Assembly: GCA_948567375.1 (NCBI GenBank)
Contig: OX419761.1
Coordinates: 41,082,243-41,146,242, forward strand
DNA: 64,000 bases
Source of the DNA: Lunularia cruciata
Lineage: Eukaryota > Streptophyta > Marchantiopsida > Lunulariales > Lunulariaceae
Direction: 5' to 3'
In this document: positions 3,671 to 40,820 of the stretch, piece after piece
How positions within the stretch are numbered: the first letter of the stretch is position 1
Layout of the letters: each line of letters opens with the position of its first letter
Made by a program: the position numbers and the translations under genes
The notes under the pieces: generated by a model
Told to the model about the DNA's origin: nothing
The model's database searches: none
Seen by the model: the letters and a program-made list of their open reading frames with translations, nothing else

Positions 3671-3849
3671 CCAATAGTAATGGCGTTTAACTACATCCAA
3701 GGTCTTGTCCACTTCGACATGACTTGCAATGGCCGAATCATGACATTCCGCTAGAATAGTGGTGCGTAATTGTGGGACATTTGGGATCCATAATCTACCA
3801 TCACTAAAGGTGAGTCCTTGGGTGCTAATGACACATTTGGATAATTGTG

Positions 3850-5123
3850 CTTCTACAATCTATGGATCAATTTTTGTAGCAGCCAGAATCTCTGGCTAGA
3901 ATTCAGGGTTAATCTTAACCTCTACCACCAAGTTGTTTGCCATTGGCATGCAGGTGAATGCATCTGCAAGTTGCTTCTTACCTTCCACGTAGGTGATTGT
4001 CATGTTGAAGTGTTGTTACCACTCTGCCTACCAAATTTGGCGATGAGATAGATCACTCTGCGTCTCGAGGTAGACTAGAGGTTTGTGGTCTATCTCTACT
4101 ACAAACACCTTCTTGCCCTGATAGTGCTTCCAATGCTTGGTTGCCAGAATGATGGCCAGCTCTTCTTGTTCTATGGTGTGGTAGTTGCGCTCTACCGGTA
4201 ACAACTTTCAAGAGAAATAGGCAATTGGATGCCATCCGTCATGCTACGCTTGATGCATCTATAGCCAACTTGATTGGACGTTTTGAGTCATACCACTTCA
4301 AGATTGGTACATGTAGCAAGGCGGCTTTCAATTCTTTAAAGGCCAACTCTTGTGCAATTCCCCATGTCCACTTCTATCTCTTGCCAAGTAGTGCCATTAA
4401 AGGCTATGCAACCTTGGAGAAGTCCTTGACAAATCTACAATAGAATCCCGTCAATCCCAAGAAGCTCTTGAGTTGAGTTTGATCTTCAAAGGCACTCCAT
4501 TTTTGAATGACCTCTATTTTATCCATCAATACTTGAATGCTCTCTGCACTTACTCTATGCCCCAAGTAGTCTACTTCAGATTTTCCAAACTCACACTTTG
4601 AGATTTTGGCATACAATTGATTCTATCTTAGAATCTGGAGTACCTCTCGTAGATGTTGTTTGTGTTCCGTCATTGTGCTACTATATACTAAGATATCGTC
4701 CAAGAAGATGATAATAGACTTATCCAAGTATGGACAAGATATGTCATTCATTAGACTCATGAAAGTGGCAGGTGCATTGGTGAGGCCAAAAGGCATCAAA
4801 AGATACTCAAAGTGGCCATACTTGGTTTGAAAGGCAATTTTGTACACATCCTCCTCTGCAATTTGGATTTGATTGTAACCGCTCCGCAAGTCCAATTTGG
4901 TGAAGTATCTTGCTCCATGGAGTTGATCAAATAGGTCATCCATGCAAGGTAAGGGGTATTTGTTCTTCACTATTTGCTGATTGAGATCCCGATAGTCAAT
5001 GCACATGCGCATTGTACCATCCTTCTTCTTCACAAACAAGACAAGGACCCCATATAGTGATACGCTAGGTTGGATGAACCCTTTCTGCAGCATCTTCTCA
5101 ATTTGAGTCTTACACTCCTCCAA
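3850..5123 (-). pseudogene. A1 reverse transcriptase and RNase H fossil
   Basis: The best part at 4623-5123 shows [57 protein letters not shown] and the catalytic FLDDILVYS motif. SAESIQVLMDKIEVIQKW and SFLGLTGFYCRFVKDFS continue at 4404-4616, the thumb/connection region. RNase H-like sequence follows to about 3850. It copies RNA into DNA in the particle. Ty3/gypsy assignment is secure; the element as a whole is broken. Confidence 0.9.
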
Positions 5124-5216
5124 CTCTTGAGGTGATAGGCAATATGGGGCCTTACAAGGAGGTGTCTTCCCCGGGAGTGTCTCAATTTTATGATCTACTC
5201 AACTTTTTGGTGGTAA

Positions 5217-5780
5217 TCATGAGGGTAGATCATCGGAAACAACATCTTGAAACTCATCTACCACATCCTTCAATTTATCAAGAATTTTTTCATCAAGTTG
5301 TGCACTCTGGACTTCTCTTATTAGACCCATGAAACATCTATTGGTCTTACAGACAATTGCCGTCCTTATGACATGTAGGGGCAGTTTCTGCCTGTGTGAT
5401 TTTTCTTTAACCCCAATGATTAACCATTGGTGGGTTCTCACTACTTTCTTCCTCCAATCTACCATAAGGTTGTAATGCTCCATCCATGGCATGCCTAATA
5501 TTGCATCATAATGAGCTTATTATATCACTCGCCACTCAATTGCTTCCTGATATTCTCCTCCAGGGAGTGTTACCTGTCTAGGTAATGATTCAATCCTCTT
5601 TGTTTGCCCATTAGATAACTTTACTTCTTCACTCCTATCTTTCTCTAGATCCATTCCCAATCTTATTGCAACAGAGCAAGACAAGAAATTCTCTGTTGCT
5701 CCTGGATCTATTAATGTCTCATTTGATTACCTTCTAGGATTCCATTCACGACAATCAATTGTGAGGTTGCCTTTTGGGAT
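5217..5780 (-). pseudogene. A1 aspartic protease region
   Basis: A minus-strand LIDPGATENFLSCS motif near 5690-5720 matches the LIDSGAT active-site loop of retrotransposon aspartic proteases. The conserved linker to the reverse transcriptase lies downstream (MPWMEHYNLMVDW, with KLKDVVDEFQDV at about 5240). Confidence 0.7.
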
Positions 5781-5899
5781 CTTTGCGCATTAGTCTTCTT
5801 CCTTCCCTCACTTCTCTACTTCCTTATTGAGCTAGTAAGTCAACAAGGTACATTTACTGGCAATCTTTGTTTCTTGAAGTGATTTCCACCTCCTCTTCT

Positions 5900-7430
5900 T
5901 CAATGTGCCTCTCCATGTTGTTCAAAGATCACCAGTATGAAGGCCAAGGGCCTCTTGGGAAATGAGTGCAACATTTGGTAGAGATGTGCCCAATACGGCC
6001 ACAATTGTAACAACGGCGTTGTTCTTCTCAAGTTCCTTCTCCTTGTGGGACTCTATCTCTTTTTTCTTCTACCCGTCTATGCTCCTCTTGAAGCGGTCTT
6101 GCTCCTCGATCTTGGAATCAAAGGTTGTCCAATTCCAACGGTACCGGTCCACCCGTGTAAATAACTTTGGTCTGCACAATAATGTTGAGGTGGAACTACT
6201 CCTTCACCTCCACCTAATGCTCCTACTATTCGCCTCCTGCTTTACGCCAAGCAATGGCTTCAAATACCATGCAAGGATTTTGCACCATAACTTCTTGGCA
6301 AATCCGCTCCTTCAACCCTTGTTTGAAATTGTCGAGAGCCTCTGCTGAACTCATGTTGGTTATTATGACTTGTAGATCCAGAAATACCTCCACATACTCT
6401 TGTATATTGTTCTTTTGTCTCAATCCTCATAGTTGGGTTTGAGCCATCTGCACCAAATCCACCGATAGGAAATTCTTTAGCAATCCTTCTTGCATTGCCG
6501 TCCATGTGACCTCCCTTCTCTCTGTCAACATGGATTTTTCTCAAGCATCATACCATGTGAGTGCTTTATTGGTCAAGTACCCACATGCAAACACACCTGC
6601 AGCATGCTCTATGATCTCTGTTGAGAATAATCAGAAATATCGATTCATTCTTGAGATCCAATTTTCCACTACTCCCATTGTACGCTGCCTCTTGTAAGGC
6701 TTGATGTTGCAGGTCTTCTTCATCCAGAGTAGCAGTGTGGCTTCATTGTTGATAGGGTTTGTAGGCACGGGTGCCTCTCCAAGTCCTTAAGTTGCACGTA
6801 TTGGGTTTTGAGATGGCTCTTCTTCTTGCATGGCTTGATCGTTCCTGAGGATCTGCACTTGACTTTGTAATGTTTCCATGGTCATCTTAATCTCTCAAAA
6901 TTCATTCAACATCCCTTGCATTCCTTGCCGCAGCTCTTGCAATTGCGGATCCATGGTTCCTACAACACTCAATTGCTAATGTCTACTTCAATACATAGTC
7001 AATATGATCACTTTGGAAGGCGCACAAACTATCAGAACTACCATTGGGACCTCAGAAGCTATCACTTGTTGATAATACTCCTCACCAAAATTCCTAACCA
7101 TAAAATCTCTAAACATCACTTTCGGTCTCACTACATAACGGATTTCTACTTGAGTGTTGAAAGAGAGAGGATTTGGGACATTCATATCCATATTATCATA
7201 ATAGAATGTAGATTGTCAAATCCAACTCTCTGTCATATATCACCATTGGTAGAATCACATGGTTTGGTGAGTTCATCACCCTATCTATGAATTCTGCACC
7301 AAAGTGATAAACTAACAATACCCTCATCTGCTCACGCTGGATGTACATAACCTTGATGTGGAATGGATTTGAGAATGGAAATCTAGGTGCGGGAAATTGT
7401 CTTCTTGGTGCATCCATCCCATCCGCTCTC
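5900..7430 (-). pseudogene. A1 gag fossil with CCHC zinc knuckle
   Basis: The minus strand encodes gag-like sequence at 6226-6544 (QKNNIQEYVEVFLDLQ, ALDNFKQGLKERICQEV) and an N-terminal part at 6988-7417. A zinc knuckle, CYNCGRIGHISTKC, is readable at 5971-6012. Gag forms the particle shell and the knuckle binds RNA. Confidence 0.8.
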
Positions 7431-10639: not shown

Positions 10640-12280
10640 AACTCATATGTCCAACCTTCTTGTCCATTGAGTGCTCAAGTAATTCCCATTAAAAAACCAT
10701 TCTTCTTCATATAAATCCTTAGAGAAAGTTTCAAAAGAGAAAAAAAAATCTCAACAATATCTTCCACTACTTTTATGGTGTAGAAGTTATCCCCTACACA
10801 ACCTTCTTGCTCATCATAGAACCTTGCTCTAGATAGCTTGTCATCCACTAGATTTCATGCACCAAGAATGTACCTAAAATATGGATTGAATGTCTTGATA
10901 TATGCTATTCATTTGAGCAAAGCAATATCCAACATTGAGCAACCTATGATTATACCAAGTAGCAACAAACAATATGTTTCCACAATTAATGGTGCTCCTA
11001 TGAAATACTCCTTATTTTCCTTTAGAGAAAAAATGATCTCTCATAACTCCCACTTAACTTGAAGGTAATGTCATTGCCTTTGGTGTAAAATTTTAGCATA
11101 AAATTTGACCACATATCTTTAGCCATCCTCATCCTCTTGTCTTACTATCTAATTGACACCAATAGAACTAGTAGTAGTTGTAAGAAAGACATATTTATCT
11201 CCATCATATGATGCCTTTCTCAACATTGGTGCAAAAACTAGTAGTTTCTTCAACTCTTGCATGGAAGAAATCTACTTCTCCTCCCATCAAAATGTCTCCT
11301 CCTTCCTTAGTAGTTGGTACAAGAGATCCACAACATGTGCAAAATGAGGAATCCAAGTTTTGTAAAATAGAAAAGCACCTAAAAACCTTTTAACTTCTAT
11401 CTTGGTGTTACTTCCTATGGCTTGCACTTTCTCAAGACTTGACTTCTTGCCATAAGGTCCACACAAATGCCCAACTACAAGTACTTCATAAACCCCAAAG
11501 GTCAATTTCTCCCCTAATAATGTCAAATGTACTTCTTGCAACCTTGATAGAATGTTTTGACAATCTATTATGTAATCAAAAAGAAGTTTCATGCACCTTT
11601 TTTGATCCAAAGGCTCATCCTTGTTGATTTCCTCACATTCTTTTATAGGTACATCATCCAAGAAAGGCATAGTTTTATTTGGAATGAAGTCATGTAAAAG
11701 CCTATGCACACCACTCATCATATAGGCTATAGAATTTGTTGCTCCTTGAGGTAAGGTATACATCTTTATAAAACCCAATGGTGTCCTCATTGTTGTCAGA
11801 TCTTTCCTTCTCTCAGCCAATTGGAATTGATTGTATCCATATTATAGATCTCCAATAGAATATATGGATCTACTTGCAAACTCCTCCCCTATAGGTCTCA
11901 CACCTATGTGAGACCTATAGGGGTAACTTCGTAATGGTAACTTGGTTCATAGGTTGCATATCATGTATAAACCTCAATTTTTCATTCTTTTTAGGAATTG
12001 TAAACCACCAACTAGAATATGGAGCTATAGATGGCTTCAAAATTTCCAATTGAATCTTCTCGGTTAACAAAGCAATGAGACTCAGAAAATGAGCTTTAGG
12101 AGCAAGAATTGGTCTCAAATTCCATAGAACATACAGAATTGTGAAAATGATCATGGGTAATAAAATGGTTGGATCAACACACCCTATTTTTAGTGGTTGA
12201 AAGGCAAAGAATTTACCATGTTTTGATGATTTCTTTGGTAAATAATTTCTTTTCTTCATCTGTAAGAAAATTTCCCTCAT
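10640..12280 (-). pseudogene. C1 reverse transcriptase/RNase H fossil
   Basis: At 11915-12280 the minus strand shows LEILKPSIAPYSSWWFTIPKK and KLRFIHDMQPMNQVTI. At 11287-11820 it shows MRTPLGFIKMYTLPQGATNS, the catalytic PFLDDVPIKE and FLGAFLFYKTWIPHFA. These are fingers/palm and connection motifs of a Ty3/gypsy reverse transcriptase. RNase H-like sequence continues to about 10640. The part carries several breaks. Confidence 0.85.
11886..11923. repeat. Perfect hairpin, 17-bp stem and 4-base loop
   Basis: Bases 11886-11902 are the exact reverse complement of 11907-11923, with loop ccta. It lies between the two reverse-transcriptase blocks of C1. Neither arm shows drift although the surrounding fossil is worn. 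Confidence 0.95.
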
Positions 12281-38574: not shown

Positions 38575-38664
38575 ATGGACGGTCAAGAAGTCGCGCAATT
38601 TCTCACGAATTCAAATGTCTCCAGCTGGCGAGCTTACAAACGTCCTTTACACTTCACCAGCTGA
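38575..38664 (+). CDS. uORF-a, 29 residues, overlapping the conserved-type uORF
   Basis: This is the first ATG after the predicted acceptor of leader intron 1, and opens a 29-codon frame ending TGA at 38662-38664. It overlaps the start of uORF-b in another frame. Its stop lies one base before an in-frame ATG of uORF-b (TGACATG, 38662-38668). In plant SAMDC leaders a tiny uORF ends at, and overlaps, the start of the conserved small uORF, which sets how often the second is translated. This frame is longer than the usual 2-4 codons, so equivalence is only inferred. The encoded peptide resembles nothing I know. Confidence 0.4.
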   Translation: MDGQEVAQFLTNSNVSSWRAYKRPLHFTS

Positions 38665-38980
38665 CATGACCGGCTCGGAGAAGTTTAGCATCGTTGCTTC
38701 ATCCAAAGTAAGAGTACGAAGCCGATCCTTTCTACTGTGTGTACATATACGTCTCTGACATTCAATCATCAGTTTTATATCGGTAGCAGGATTTTCAATT
38801 GAGCTTCATAATCTAAAGTGTGCTGAAGTTGAAAATGAAGAGAAAAGTCTGAGCTTGTGGTCAAAGGTCCTTATTATGCGATTTACAGCAATTTCCTTTC
38901 AATCATGAAAATGACCTCAATGGCTGACAATTTCTACCCTGTCCTTTGTTGTGCTGCAGTGTCTTCCGATGCTGGCTTAA
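38615..38980 (+). CDS. uORF-b: spliced upstream ORF resembling the conserved plant SAMDC uORF
   Basis: The frame starts at ATG 38615, runs 31 codons to 38707, and continues after a predicted intron (38708-38959) with six codons and TAA at 38978-38980, giving 37 residues. The intron falls exactly between codons. The spliced end reads EKFSIVASSKCLPMLA. From memory, the conserved seed-plant uORF ends KKFRSAAYSNCARKPS, which shares KF, a following A, an S and a C at the same spacing. An LYTSP stretch parallels its FYEAP. In plants this peptide stalls ribosomes when spermidine/spermine are high and so lowers SAMDC translation. A second in-frame ATG at 38666 would give 20 residues. No other ATG lies between its stop and the main start. 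The homology is weak and judged by eye. Confidence 0.55.
38708..38959 (+). other. Predicted SAMDC leader intron 2, inside uORF-b
   Basis: The donor is AAA|GTAAGA at 38708. The acceptor is a long pyrimidine tract ending GTGCTGCAG at 38959. It is 252 bases, phase 0. Splicing extends uORF-b into a short conserved-looking end; without splicing the frame ends at TGA 38756-38758 with an unrelated tail. Confidence 0.6.
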
Positions 38981-39128: not shown

Positions 39129-40820
39129 ATGGCCGCAGCCGAGCTACCCGCACCTGGTTTTGAGGGGTTCGAGAAAAGACTAGAGATTGAGTTCTCCCCG
39201 ACACACAGCTGTGGTGACAAAGCCTTCGACAGGGGGCTAACCCTTCGAAACCTGTCTCGATCTCAGCTGGATGAATTGCTGAAACACGCAGAATGTACCA
39301 TTGTATCTCAGCTCCACAATGAACGGTGCGATTCCTACGTTCTCTCCGAATCCAGTCTTTTCGTCTATCCTCTGAAGATAGTCATCAAAACCTGCGGCAC
39401 GACACAGCTCCTCAAAGCCATCCCTCGCCTGCTCGAGTTAACCTCTGAATTGCACTTGAAAGTCATCAAATGTAAATACACTCGAGGCACTTTCATGTTC
39501 CCTGAAGTTCAGCCTTCCCCTCACAGTAGTTTCGAGGAAGAAGTGGACTATCTGGAACGTTATTTCGGTTACCTGGGTGGAGAAGCTTACGTGATGGGAG
39601 ATTTGACAAGGTTCCCAAATTGGCATCTGTTCGTGGCTTCAGAAAATCAAACAGCTGCGGCTGACCCGACATTCACTCTGGAAATGTGCATGACCGACCT
39701 TGATCAGATCAAGGCTCATCAATTCTACAATGCGAGCGGGTCTTTGTCCGGGCTGCAGATGACTACCATCTCAGGCATTGACACACTACTCCCCAAAGCA
39801 GAAATTTGTGACTTTGCCTTCAAACCTTGTGGGTACTCGATGAACGCATTAGATGGAGGAGCACATTCAACGATTCATGTGACTCCGGAAGATGGTATGA
39901 GCTATGCGAGCTTCGAGTCCATGGGGTACGGCCCCAGAGAGATGAATTTACAAGAACTGGTGAATGGAGTGGCGTCCGTTTTCAAACCAGGGAAGCTTGC
40001 AATGAGCGTGCATATGAACAGCACGAATGTTGGAGGTGAAGATCCTGGATCATGGGGTGCACCCGTAGCACCAGCTGGTTACATTTGTGTAGGGACTACC
40101 CGGCAGGAGTTACTCCACCAGGGAGCGGTGGTCTTCCACATGTTTGAATTAGCCCCTGACACATCAGTGCGAAGAATTCCATCCGCCTTTGTCTTGCCTC
40201 TAATTCAAAAGAATTCGGATGAATGTTCCAAATCGAAGCAATGCGGGGATGTGTTTTGTGCATGCAACGTGCAACTGGTCAAGGAGATTACATATCGTTT
40301 CAATGGAAGAGAGATCATGAAAGTATTTGCTGCCACCAATTCAATGTCCACGTTCAACTCGGAGGCTGCAGTGGATCCATATCTTCATCTACGAGCTGTT
40401 TCTTCCGCTGGCCCGGAGACGGAAGCAATGGGGGAATCCGAAGTATGCCAGTACCTCCTGATTGCTGCCAGAAGCTGTGGTTTGAAAGTGATTGGAGCTG
40501 CGTTGCAGTTGCACGTCGGGGGTGGTGCTGCTTTCGATGTGGCTTGTTTTGCTGAAATCATCGAGTCCGCGGCGAATTTCTTCTGCACTGCCGCGACTGC
40601 GGGGGTTTCTTCTGCTCTGAGTCTCACGGACATGGAGCTGCAGGTTCTGAATTCTAAATACAGGGGTGATGGGCGAGCGAGCTCGAGACTAATTCCAGCC
40701 GTGACATCGACCATGAACCAGGTCATCTTCTTAGAAGATGCTTGCGCCCTTGCCACCCGGAGTGGAATCTGCACCACCCACTGGGCATCGAAGTCGAACG
40801 ACGGAATCTACAGTCAATGA
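39129..40820 (+). CDS. SAMDC: S-adenosylmethionine decarboxylase proenzyme with ODC-like C-terminal extension
   Basis: It makes decarboxylated AdoMet, the aminopropyl donor for spermidine and spermine, in the cytosol. The single exon encodes 563 residues. I chose ATG 39129 (context AAAATGGCC); the open frame before it has no ATG. AdoMetDC residues are all present: F11/E12/E15, the LSE|SS self-cleavage site (E74|S75, Ser75 becoming the pyruvoyl group), C89, F231, S237 in CGYSMN, H250 and E254. TRGTF at 118-122 is the usual plant motif region. Plant enzymes normally end near residue 350-365; here about 218 residues follow. Residues 374-405, 412-500 and 530-551 resemble pieces of ornithine decarboxylase: GLKVIGAALQLHVGGG and FAEIIESAANFF against DVVGVSFHVGSG and FVQAISDARCVF. 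The PLP-lysine position (AVKCN) reads AATNS (T403) and the GGG loop is lost, so ODC activity is not expected. Identity of the head is certain; the tail is inference. Confidence 0.97.
   Translation: MAAAELPAPGFEGFEKRLEIEFSPTHSCGDKAFDRGLTLRNLSRSQLDELLKHAECTIVSQLHNERCDSYVLSESSLFVYPLKIVIKTCGTTQLLKAIPRLLELTSELHLKVIKCKYTRGTFMFPEVQPSPHSSFEEEVDYLERYFGYLGGEAYVMGDLTRFPNWHLFVASENQTAAADPTFTLEMCMTDLDQIKAHQFYNASGSLSGLQMTTISGIDTLLPKAEICDFAFKPCGYSMNALDGGAHSTIHVTPEDGMSYASFESMGYGPREMNLQELVNGVASVFKPGKLAMSVHMNSTNVGGEDPGSWGAPVAPAGYICVGTTRQELLHQGAVVFHMFELAPDTSVRRIPSAFVLPLIQKNSDECSKSKQCGDVFCACNVQLVKEITYRFNGREIMKVFAATNSMSTFNSEAAVDPYLHLRAVSSAGPETEAMGESEVCQYLLIAARSCGLKVIGAALQLHVGGGAAFDVACFAEIIESAANFFCTAATAGVSSALSLTDMELQVLNSKYRGDGRASSRLIPAVTSTMNQVIFLEDACALATRSGICTTHWASKSNDGIYSQ
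40248..40785 (+). other. ODC-like, probably inactive, domain within the SAMDC polypeptide
   Basis: This is SAMDC residues 374-552. By eye, DVFCACNVQLVKEI with KVFAATNS parallels the ODC N-terminal strand and Lys69 strand (FYVCDLGDI, FYAVKCN). PYLHLRAVSS to LSLTDMEL parallels the mid barrel from LVLRIATDD to LLDIGGG, with His462 matching ODC His197. IFLEDACALAT parallels the C-terminal LFENMGAYT motif. Segments between these are much shorter than in true ODC. A regulatory or dimer-building role like that of antizyme inhibitor or of dead paralogues elsewhere in polyamine metabolism is possible but unproven. Confidence 0.55.

Follow-up and report, generated by a model that had tools for sequence, protein, structure and literature searches.

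Introduction

Spermidine synthesis has two committed steps, catalyzed by ornithine decarboxylase (ODC) and S-adenosylmethionine decarboxylase (AdoMetDC), and a single protein uniting both enzymes has been presented as a speciality of malaria parasites. A gene of the liverwort Lunularia cruciata raises the question in a plant. It lies in a stretch of 64,000 nucleotides (the window), and its reading frame runs on far beyond the end of AdoMetDC. The initial annotation, made from the letters alone, proposed that this extension is a dead ODC domain. We asked what the tail is, where it came from, and whether it still serves the protein that carries it.

Results

A complete AdoMetDC head followed by an open tail

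On the forward strand, a single open frame extends from the ATG at 39129 to the stop codon at 40818-40820 and encodes 563 amino acids, namely a complete AdoMetDC head and a tail of about 220 residues. The head (residues 1-341, 39129..40151, + strand) covers the PF01536 (SAM_decarbox) profile over its full length (residues 10-339, profile positions 3-342/343, E 5.6e-109). Residues E12, E15, E74, S75, C89, S237 and H250, whose roles we assign by presumed equivalence with human AdoMetDC, are invariant in all 34 aligned sequences, window protein included. The Glu/Ser self-cleavage site (Glu74 and the pyruvoyl Ser75) and the catalytic Cys89, Ser237 and His250 of a class 2 (eukaryotic) AdoMetDC are thus all kept. 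AlphaFold modelled the head with pLDDT mostly above 80, and Foldseek matched it to human and potato AdoMetDC. The completeness of the head, as first annotated, was confirmed, and given the catalytic residues in place the protein would be expected to process itself and to decarboxylate AdoMet.

The whole window gave no match in Rfam and tRNA scans. Elsewhere in the window, a 177-aa frame at 11287-11820 (- strand) looks like a piece of a retroelement reverse transcriptase by eye, with no Pfam match at E 0.001.

The tail is related to ODC

Homology of the tail starts at about residue 342. A frame open across 219 codons has a chance of 2.7e-5 given the base composition, and codon usage there gives slight support for coding, with 43 of 2000 random recodings doing equally well. 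Taken alone, the window tail gave no Pfam match and, with phmmer, no ODC match in the PDB; an enoyl-CoA hydratase identity, suggested by weak matches only (E 0.1-0.15), was judged to be chance. Against its own genome, the second-best match of the tail was the ODC domain of a paralogue on contig C1 (42% over residues 92-151, E 0.067). Used as a query on its own, the tail retrieved only two orthologues among 2389 candidates, one from M. paleacea and one a protein of 551 aa. Both keep the frame open into the tail, which supports its continuity on a sequence basis rather than from RNA-seq. Their tails reached E 0.27 and 0.027 against PF02784, below the family cut-off.

A profile was built from these three tails and compared by hhalign with 106 green ODCs, picked by their AVKCN motif out of 119 proteins longer than 770 aa (the other 13, with variants of AVKCN or none, were set aside). 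The match was significant, with a probability of 97.4, P 1.4e-11 and a score of 83.7; the maximum over 200 column shuffles was 26.96, and the reversed profile scored 16.3. In the opposite direction, an HMM of the 106 ODCs was run on 79 AdoMetDC tails of at least 25 residues, from 93 proteins shorter than 600 aa. It retrieved the three tails at E 1.4e-8 (window), 3e-8 and 4.6e-9. Another retrieved tail, that of P0181, is a real partial ODC, and the remaining ones among the 20 listed had E >0.2. Landmarks in the tail follow the order found in ODC: STFNSE, ESEVCQYLL..GLKV.GA..HVGGG, CFAEI.ESA..F, FLEDACALAT, NDGIY, stop.

Could the tail be an unrelated coding sequence recruited beside AdoMetDC, resembling ODC by chance? 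This reading would suit the failure of the window tail, searched singly, to match an ODC in Pfam or the PDB. We nevertheless give it practically no credence: the gap between 83.7 and the shuffle maximum of 27.0 argues strongly against a chance likeness, the HMM value of 1.4e-8 agrees, and the motif order is that of the fusion paralogue described below, at the same place and behind the same head. By these comparisons the tail is a decayed ODC homologue derived from a fusion, and the annotated idea that a plant AdoMetDC runs on in frame into a dead tail of ODC origin is upheld by the open 563-aa frame and by the profile match.

The remnant lacks the catalytic motifs and half of the barrel

The ODC remnant, as delimited by hhalign and HMM, spans residues 342-563 (40152..40817, + strand) ahead of the stop codon at 40818-40820. 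Its best-kept stretch, QCGDVFCACNVQLVKEITYRFNGREIMKVFAATNSM (residues 371-406, 40239..40346, +), stands at the position of the linker and ODC N-terminus of the fusions. The stretch contains CGDVFCACN, its Cys-rich start is absent from the five fusions aligned alongside, and its central 20-column block is identical at 18 of 20 columns across the three orthologues. By eye, its GREIMKVF..N resembles GRKILDVF..N of the Calypogeia protein P0008. STFNSE (40347..40364, +) is the counterpart of ODC TTFDSE by hhalign and motif positions; ahead of it about 115 ODC residues are gone, the PLP-lysine motif AVKCN among them. In the alignments, ESEVCQYLLIAARSCGLKVIGAALQLHVGGG (40434..40526, +) corresponds to the ODC helix-strand that ends in FHVGSG and CFAEIIESAANFF (40545..40583, +) to the helix after HVGSG, while the next ODC element, the GGG loop, is lost. 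FLEDACALATR (40728..40760, +) is the counterpart of FFAEDAFTLAT, with the EPGR directly before it deleted. The tail closes with SNDGIYSQ and the stop (40794..40820, +), equivalent to VNDGIYGS of ODC; the C-terminal beta domain with CDGLD and GAYT is missing. Both orthologues terminate in SNNGIYSQ.

From the set HVGSG, GGG loop, EPGR, CDGLD and GAYT, the window protein thus retains only an LHVGGG, and the rest of the ODC motifs are either lost or beyond the stop. The ODC positions checked are kept in 103-106 of the 106 chosen fusions, those of the five motifs just named in 105-106, and the PLP lysine in 106 of 106, these having been selected by AVKCN. The absence of the PLP lysine and GGG loop, already noticed in the annotation, was borne out by alignment. 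By what is known of ODC, such a tail should not work as an ODC. The further suggestion that this chain joins both committed steps does not hold for the window gene, whose ODC is dead and about half missing.

A structural comparison with ODC had also been proposed, and it gave no match. Block means of pLDDT in the tail are 24-63 from residue 361 on, and the model contains helices and no strands after residue 341. All 41 Foldseek matches at E <=0.001 with the window model were AdoMetDC entries, among the 50 of 770 matches listed. As a control, the intact fusion of M. polymorpha, modelled with the same 34 sequences, had pLDDT mostly of 80-98 in its ODC and matched human ODC at E 2.4e-41. No barrel was predicted for the tail, which few sequences carry, so the poor model is weak evidence of disorder.

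An intact fusion in the same genome and across green plants

The genome (566 Mb, 74 contigs) holds one other AdoMetDC among the three candidates scored. It lies on contig C1 and is 61% identical over the head. This paralogue (P0003; C1:21790339-21792918, or 3840-6419 on the - strand of the extracted locus L003) has an uninterrupted frame of 859 aa with PF01536, PF02784 (E 6e-72) and PF00278 (E 1.1e-20). Its PDB matches include T. brucei ODC (E 2.8e-99) and potato AdoMetDC (E 2.8e-77). A complete AdoMetDC and a complete ODC in one frame are therefore found in the C1 gene and not in the window gene. Since the fusion is intact in the same genome, the window gene is, on sequence grounds, its decayed counterpart. 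By their domain content, the C1 paralogue and related fusions seem capable of joining both committed steps.

With the C1 protein as query, 448 matches were obtained. The best 120 all contain PF01536 and PF02784, and 119 of them also PF00278 (P0101 lacks it). This search scored the 7992 candidates sharing most words with the query and applied a length filter that removes stand-alone enzymes; what counts is therefore the breadth of organisms, not the fraction of fusions. Among land plants, named carriers are Marchantia polymorpha (859 aa, 76% identical), two Riccia, Calypogeia fissa, Selaginella moellendorffii, Adiantum and Ceratopteris. Among algae, they are Klebsormidium, Closterium, Trebouxia, Micractinium, Coccomyxa, Tetraselmis and Cymbomonas, and Nephroselmis pyriformis by taxid; from abbreviated gene names, we take further entries to be Mesotaenium, Spirogloea, Chlorokybus and Mesostigma. 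Some of the fusion entries are transcript-derived, judging by their names. Its spread over chlorophytes, streptophyte algae, liverworts, lycophytes and ferns shows that the fusion arose long ago in green plants.

The leader keeps a probable trace of the polyamine uORF

The C1 fusion is preceded by the canonical AdoMetDC uORF of plants, which a 345-base intron interrupts ahead of CVRKPS-stop. In the window leader, tblastn found nothing convincing for an intact uORF peptide, while the control, the C1 locus, gave E 1.95e-29. A closer look at a weak match (E 0.027) nevertheless revealed a candidate for a decayed uORF at 38615..38980 (+). Its first exon (38615-38707) ends in GSEKFSIVASSK, and a GTAAG donor at 38708 falls at the phase-0 site of the C1 intron. 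The acceptor exon (38960-38980) follows a CAG and reads C and five more codons, then stop. The candidate keeps GSEKF..VASSK|C and lacks the PLGY..EDVRPHGG core and the CVRKPS end; its intron measures 252 bases (345 in C1), and 148 bases separate the exon end from the main ATG (161 in C1). Of 5000 shuffles, 6 attained the peptide score of 34. At the DNA level, the alignment fell on the same donor, with a score of 17 that equals the maximum of 200 shuffles and is not significant. Another frame, 38575-38664, was rejected as part of the uORF, as it does not run into the splice frame.

The segment 38615-38980 is probably a decayed uORF remnant, on suggestive sequence evidence, and an intron at the same place supports a shared descent of the two leaders. 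With the conserved peptide gone, the uORF of the window gene, if it is still translated, may have lost its response to polyamines. In P0035, P0036 and P0044 (Closterium and, by gene names, Chlorokybus), the uORF domain PF08132 is in the same gene model as AdoMetDC-ODC, which suggests that the uORF was tied to the fusion already in streptophyte algae.

A probable single duplication with opposite losses of ODC

A tree was calculated from 78 AdoMetDC heads out of 215 proteins. The window protein, M. paleacea and the 551-aa protein form a clade (100/99), joined by a 988-aa Calypogeia fusion and P0150 (100/96); we call this type B. In type A, the C1 paralogue, M. polymorpha and two Riccia group together (100/94) and are joined by a 462-aa Calypogeia protein and three further entries (100/99). 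Calypogeia belongs to the Jungermanniopsida, Marchantia and Riccia to the Marchantiopsida. Calypogeia-type entries, or Marchantiopsida entries, were then forced into one clade, the groups having been chosen after viewing the tree; AU tests rejected both constraints (p-AU 1.4e-5 and 3.6e-5), and with them an independent duplication in each liverwort class. From the tree and this rejection, the fusion appears to have been duplicated once, before the two classes split, with reciprocal ODC loss afterwards: type B copies would have decayed in the Marchantiopsida, and type A would have lost its ODC internally in Calypogeia and kin. A single liverwort clade of A and B is weakly supported (63/17), and the duplication may therefore predate the liverworts.

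The Calypogeia-type A copies look cut from inside. This was tested on P0134, which stands beside the 462-aa Calypogeia protein. Its tail matches the extreme C-terminus of the fusion (scores of 114-141, shuffle maxima 47-53) and does not match the linker (31-37, below shuffle maxima of 39-46), a pattern that reads as an internal excision scar. P0126 and P0128 (Calypogeia fissa, 462 aa) also end in EEYSIF..SSDD, as P0134 does, with the ODC between gone.

Over the whole head tree, the fusion label changes 8 times, at least 7 of them on starred branches. The true number of losses may be lower, as P0150, P0181 and possibly P0158, which were labelled non-fusion, may be fragments or partial. P0150 (499 aa) has a B-type head followed, by eye, by the first part of ODC and then unrelated sequence (ODC HMM E 0.21); it is perhaps a truncated contig, a retained intron or another decaying copy.

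A tree of the ODC domain (37 fusions, quick method) does not place the Calypogeia fusion firmly among land plants, and it does not contradict a joint descent of both domains. The window tail scores 120 with the A-type ODC of M. polymorpha and 109 with the B-type ODC of Calypogeia, and the tails of M. paleacea and the 551-aa protein score highest with P0009. Matching B-type ODC no better than others, the tail itself does not show B kinship. No B-type entry named M. polymorpha or Riccia was present in the best 120 of 2020 matches, nor in the two tail matches, where the 551-aa protein could belong to M. polymorpha or Riccia. The B gene may be dispensable.

The tail diverges more slowly than a fusion linker, in a patchy manner

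With gaps set aside, the window protein is 76.8% identical to M. paleacea in the head and 62.0% (132/213) in the tail, and 77.5% and 59.0% identical to the 551-aa protein; BLASTP gives 58% and 54%, respectively, for the tails. The two orthologues share 93.7% of the head and 87.3% of the tail. Tail/head rates computed from these identities are 1.8-2.1 for the three pairs. In intact fusions (two pairs), the rate relative to the head is 1.25-1.5 for ODC and 4.0-4.8 for the linker. Conservation is patchy, one 20-column block having 18 identical columns and others 1 and 4. As the tail diverges about twice as fast as the head, against four to five times for the fusion linker, some function is likely, judging from the three sequences that carry it. 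The tail would be non-catalytic, with stability, turnover or a contact as the likeliest roles.

Plain decay, in which the tail drifts until lost and is harmless to an active AdoMetDC, would account for the loss of the catalytic motifs and half of the barrel, for the lack of a confident predicted fold, for blocks that are hardly conserved, and for the absence of a named Riccia or M. polymorpha B copy among the matches listed. Against it, three sequences with the same last residues retain some 220 open codons, the window tail is 59-62% identical to the tails of both orthologues (54-58% by BLASTP), its rate is close to that of a functional ODC and well removed from that of the linker, and the conservation mosaic includes one block of 18/20. 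We consider plain decay unlikely.

A more specific role follows from the suggestion, made in the initial annotation, of an antizyme or dimer platform. On the model of antizyme inhibitor or the trypanosome prozyme, surfaces derived from ODC would bind the bifunctional paralogue in trans and tune its ODC or AdoMetDC. ODC is a dimeric enzyme, and in other organisms polyamine enzymes are regulated by dead paralogues. Both copies are present in one genome and the tail is conserved, as this proposal would have it. But half of the barrel and the whole C-terminal domain are missing, no barrel is predicted, and Riccia has type A with no named B copy among the matches listed. We regard the proposal, as an explanation of the tail, as quite improbable. 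A non-catalytic tail retained for stability, turnover or a contact is the reading we prefer, with trans regulation of the bifunctional twin as a possible activity.

Discussion

The history that we propose starts from a bifunctional AdoMetDC-ODC fusion, duplicated ahead of the split between Marchantiopsida and Jungermanniopsida. In the window lineage, type A would have stayed bifunctional in sequence. Type B would have kept its AdoMetDC, while its ODC was destroyed by a large deletion that removed the PLP lysine along with the first half of the barrel, by smaller ones such as that of EPGR, by the disappearance of the GGG loop and by a premature stop ahead of the C-terminal domain. The resulting protein would be an AdoMetDC uncoupled from putrescine synthesis, supplying aminopropyl groups without putrescine being made in the same chain. 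Its polyamine uORF would have decayed and perhaps be no longer peptide-specific. The tail probably forms no folded barrel now, and would be kept for stability, turnover or a contact centred on residues 371-406. Taken as a whole, this account of fusion descent, early duplication, loss of ODC from the B copy with AdoMetDC kept, and non-catalytic retention of the tail seems to us quite probable.

A bolder version is conceivable, and we hold it to be rather doubtful. Green plants would have begun with a bifunctional AdoMetDC-ODC and lost the ODC many times, the textbook plant SAMDC being the trimmed enzyme; in the Marchantiopsida, the dead and half-deleted ODC would have become a regulatory tail with a conserved Cys-rich block, acting on the uncoupled AdoMetDC or on the bifunctional paralogue.

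Mosses and Arabidopsis are not known to have an ODC, and a simple reason can be suggested, namely that a fusion was trimmed of its ODC half. In the C1 gene, a plant AdoMetDC uORF stands ahead of the fusion, so that a single uORF could govern both committed steps. The liverwort A/B pair with its reciprocal loss amounts to a natural experiment on the coupling of two pathway steps, in a group that includes transformable members.

A plant PLP-type AdoMetDC-ODC fusion is not mentioned in the available portions of PMC12803844, PMC11107197, PMC11020214, PMC6356823, PMC10407285, PMC9992855 and PMC8503589; these are open-access literature, and an earlier description is possible.

The closest known relatives of the window gene are green. 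The fusions of M. polymorpha, Selaginella, Klebsormidium and C1 have the same head and domain order, and the tail is homologous to their ODC; unlike them, the window copy has lost its C-terminal domain together with about half of the barrel and the key ODC motifs, and its uORF is at best a remnant. The seed-plant and moss SAMDC entries (about 355-470 aa) have a homologous AdoMetDC head in the same tree, and no ODC-like tail was seen among those covered by the ODC HMM search. Antizyme inhibitor and the trypanosome AdoMetDC prozyme are likewise dead relatives of polyamine decarboxylases. They are whole dead proteins acting in trans, whereas the dead ODC of the window gene is incomplete and forms one chain with an AdoMetDC that keeps its catalytic residues.

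Two fusions outside plants can be compared. The bifunctional AdoMetDC/ODC of Plasmodium, whose organisation is called unique there in the part of the source available (PMC3912857), resembles the green fusion in placing AdoMetDC and a PLP-dependent ODC in one chain. The Plasmodium enzyme is bifunctional while the window copy is not, and its likeness to the green fusion is one of layout, with no kinship implied. In bacteria, SpeD-SpeDC fusions with a degraded second domain, such as that of Victivallis vadensis, are described in the accessible part of PMC10407285. As in the window gene, the ODC half of a fusion died, and in SpeD-SpeDC the AdoMetDC stayed active. Both halves of SpeD-SpeDC are, however, bacterial SpeD homologues of the pyruvoyl type, whereas the dead half in the window is a PLP-type, alanine-racemase-fold ODC, in a plant.
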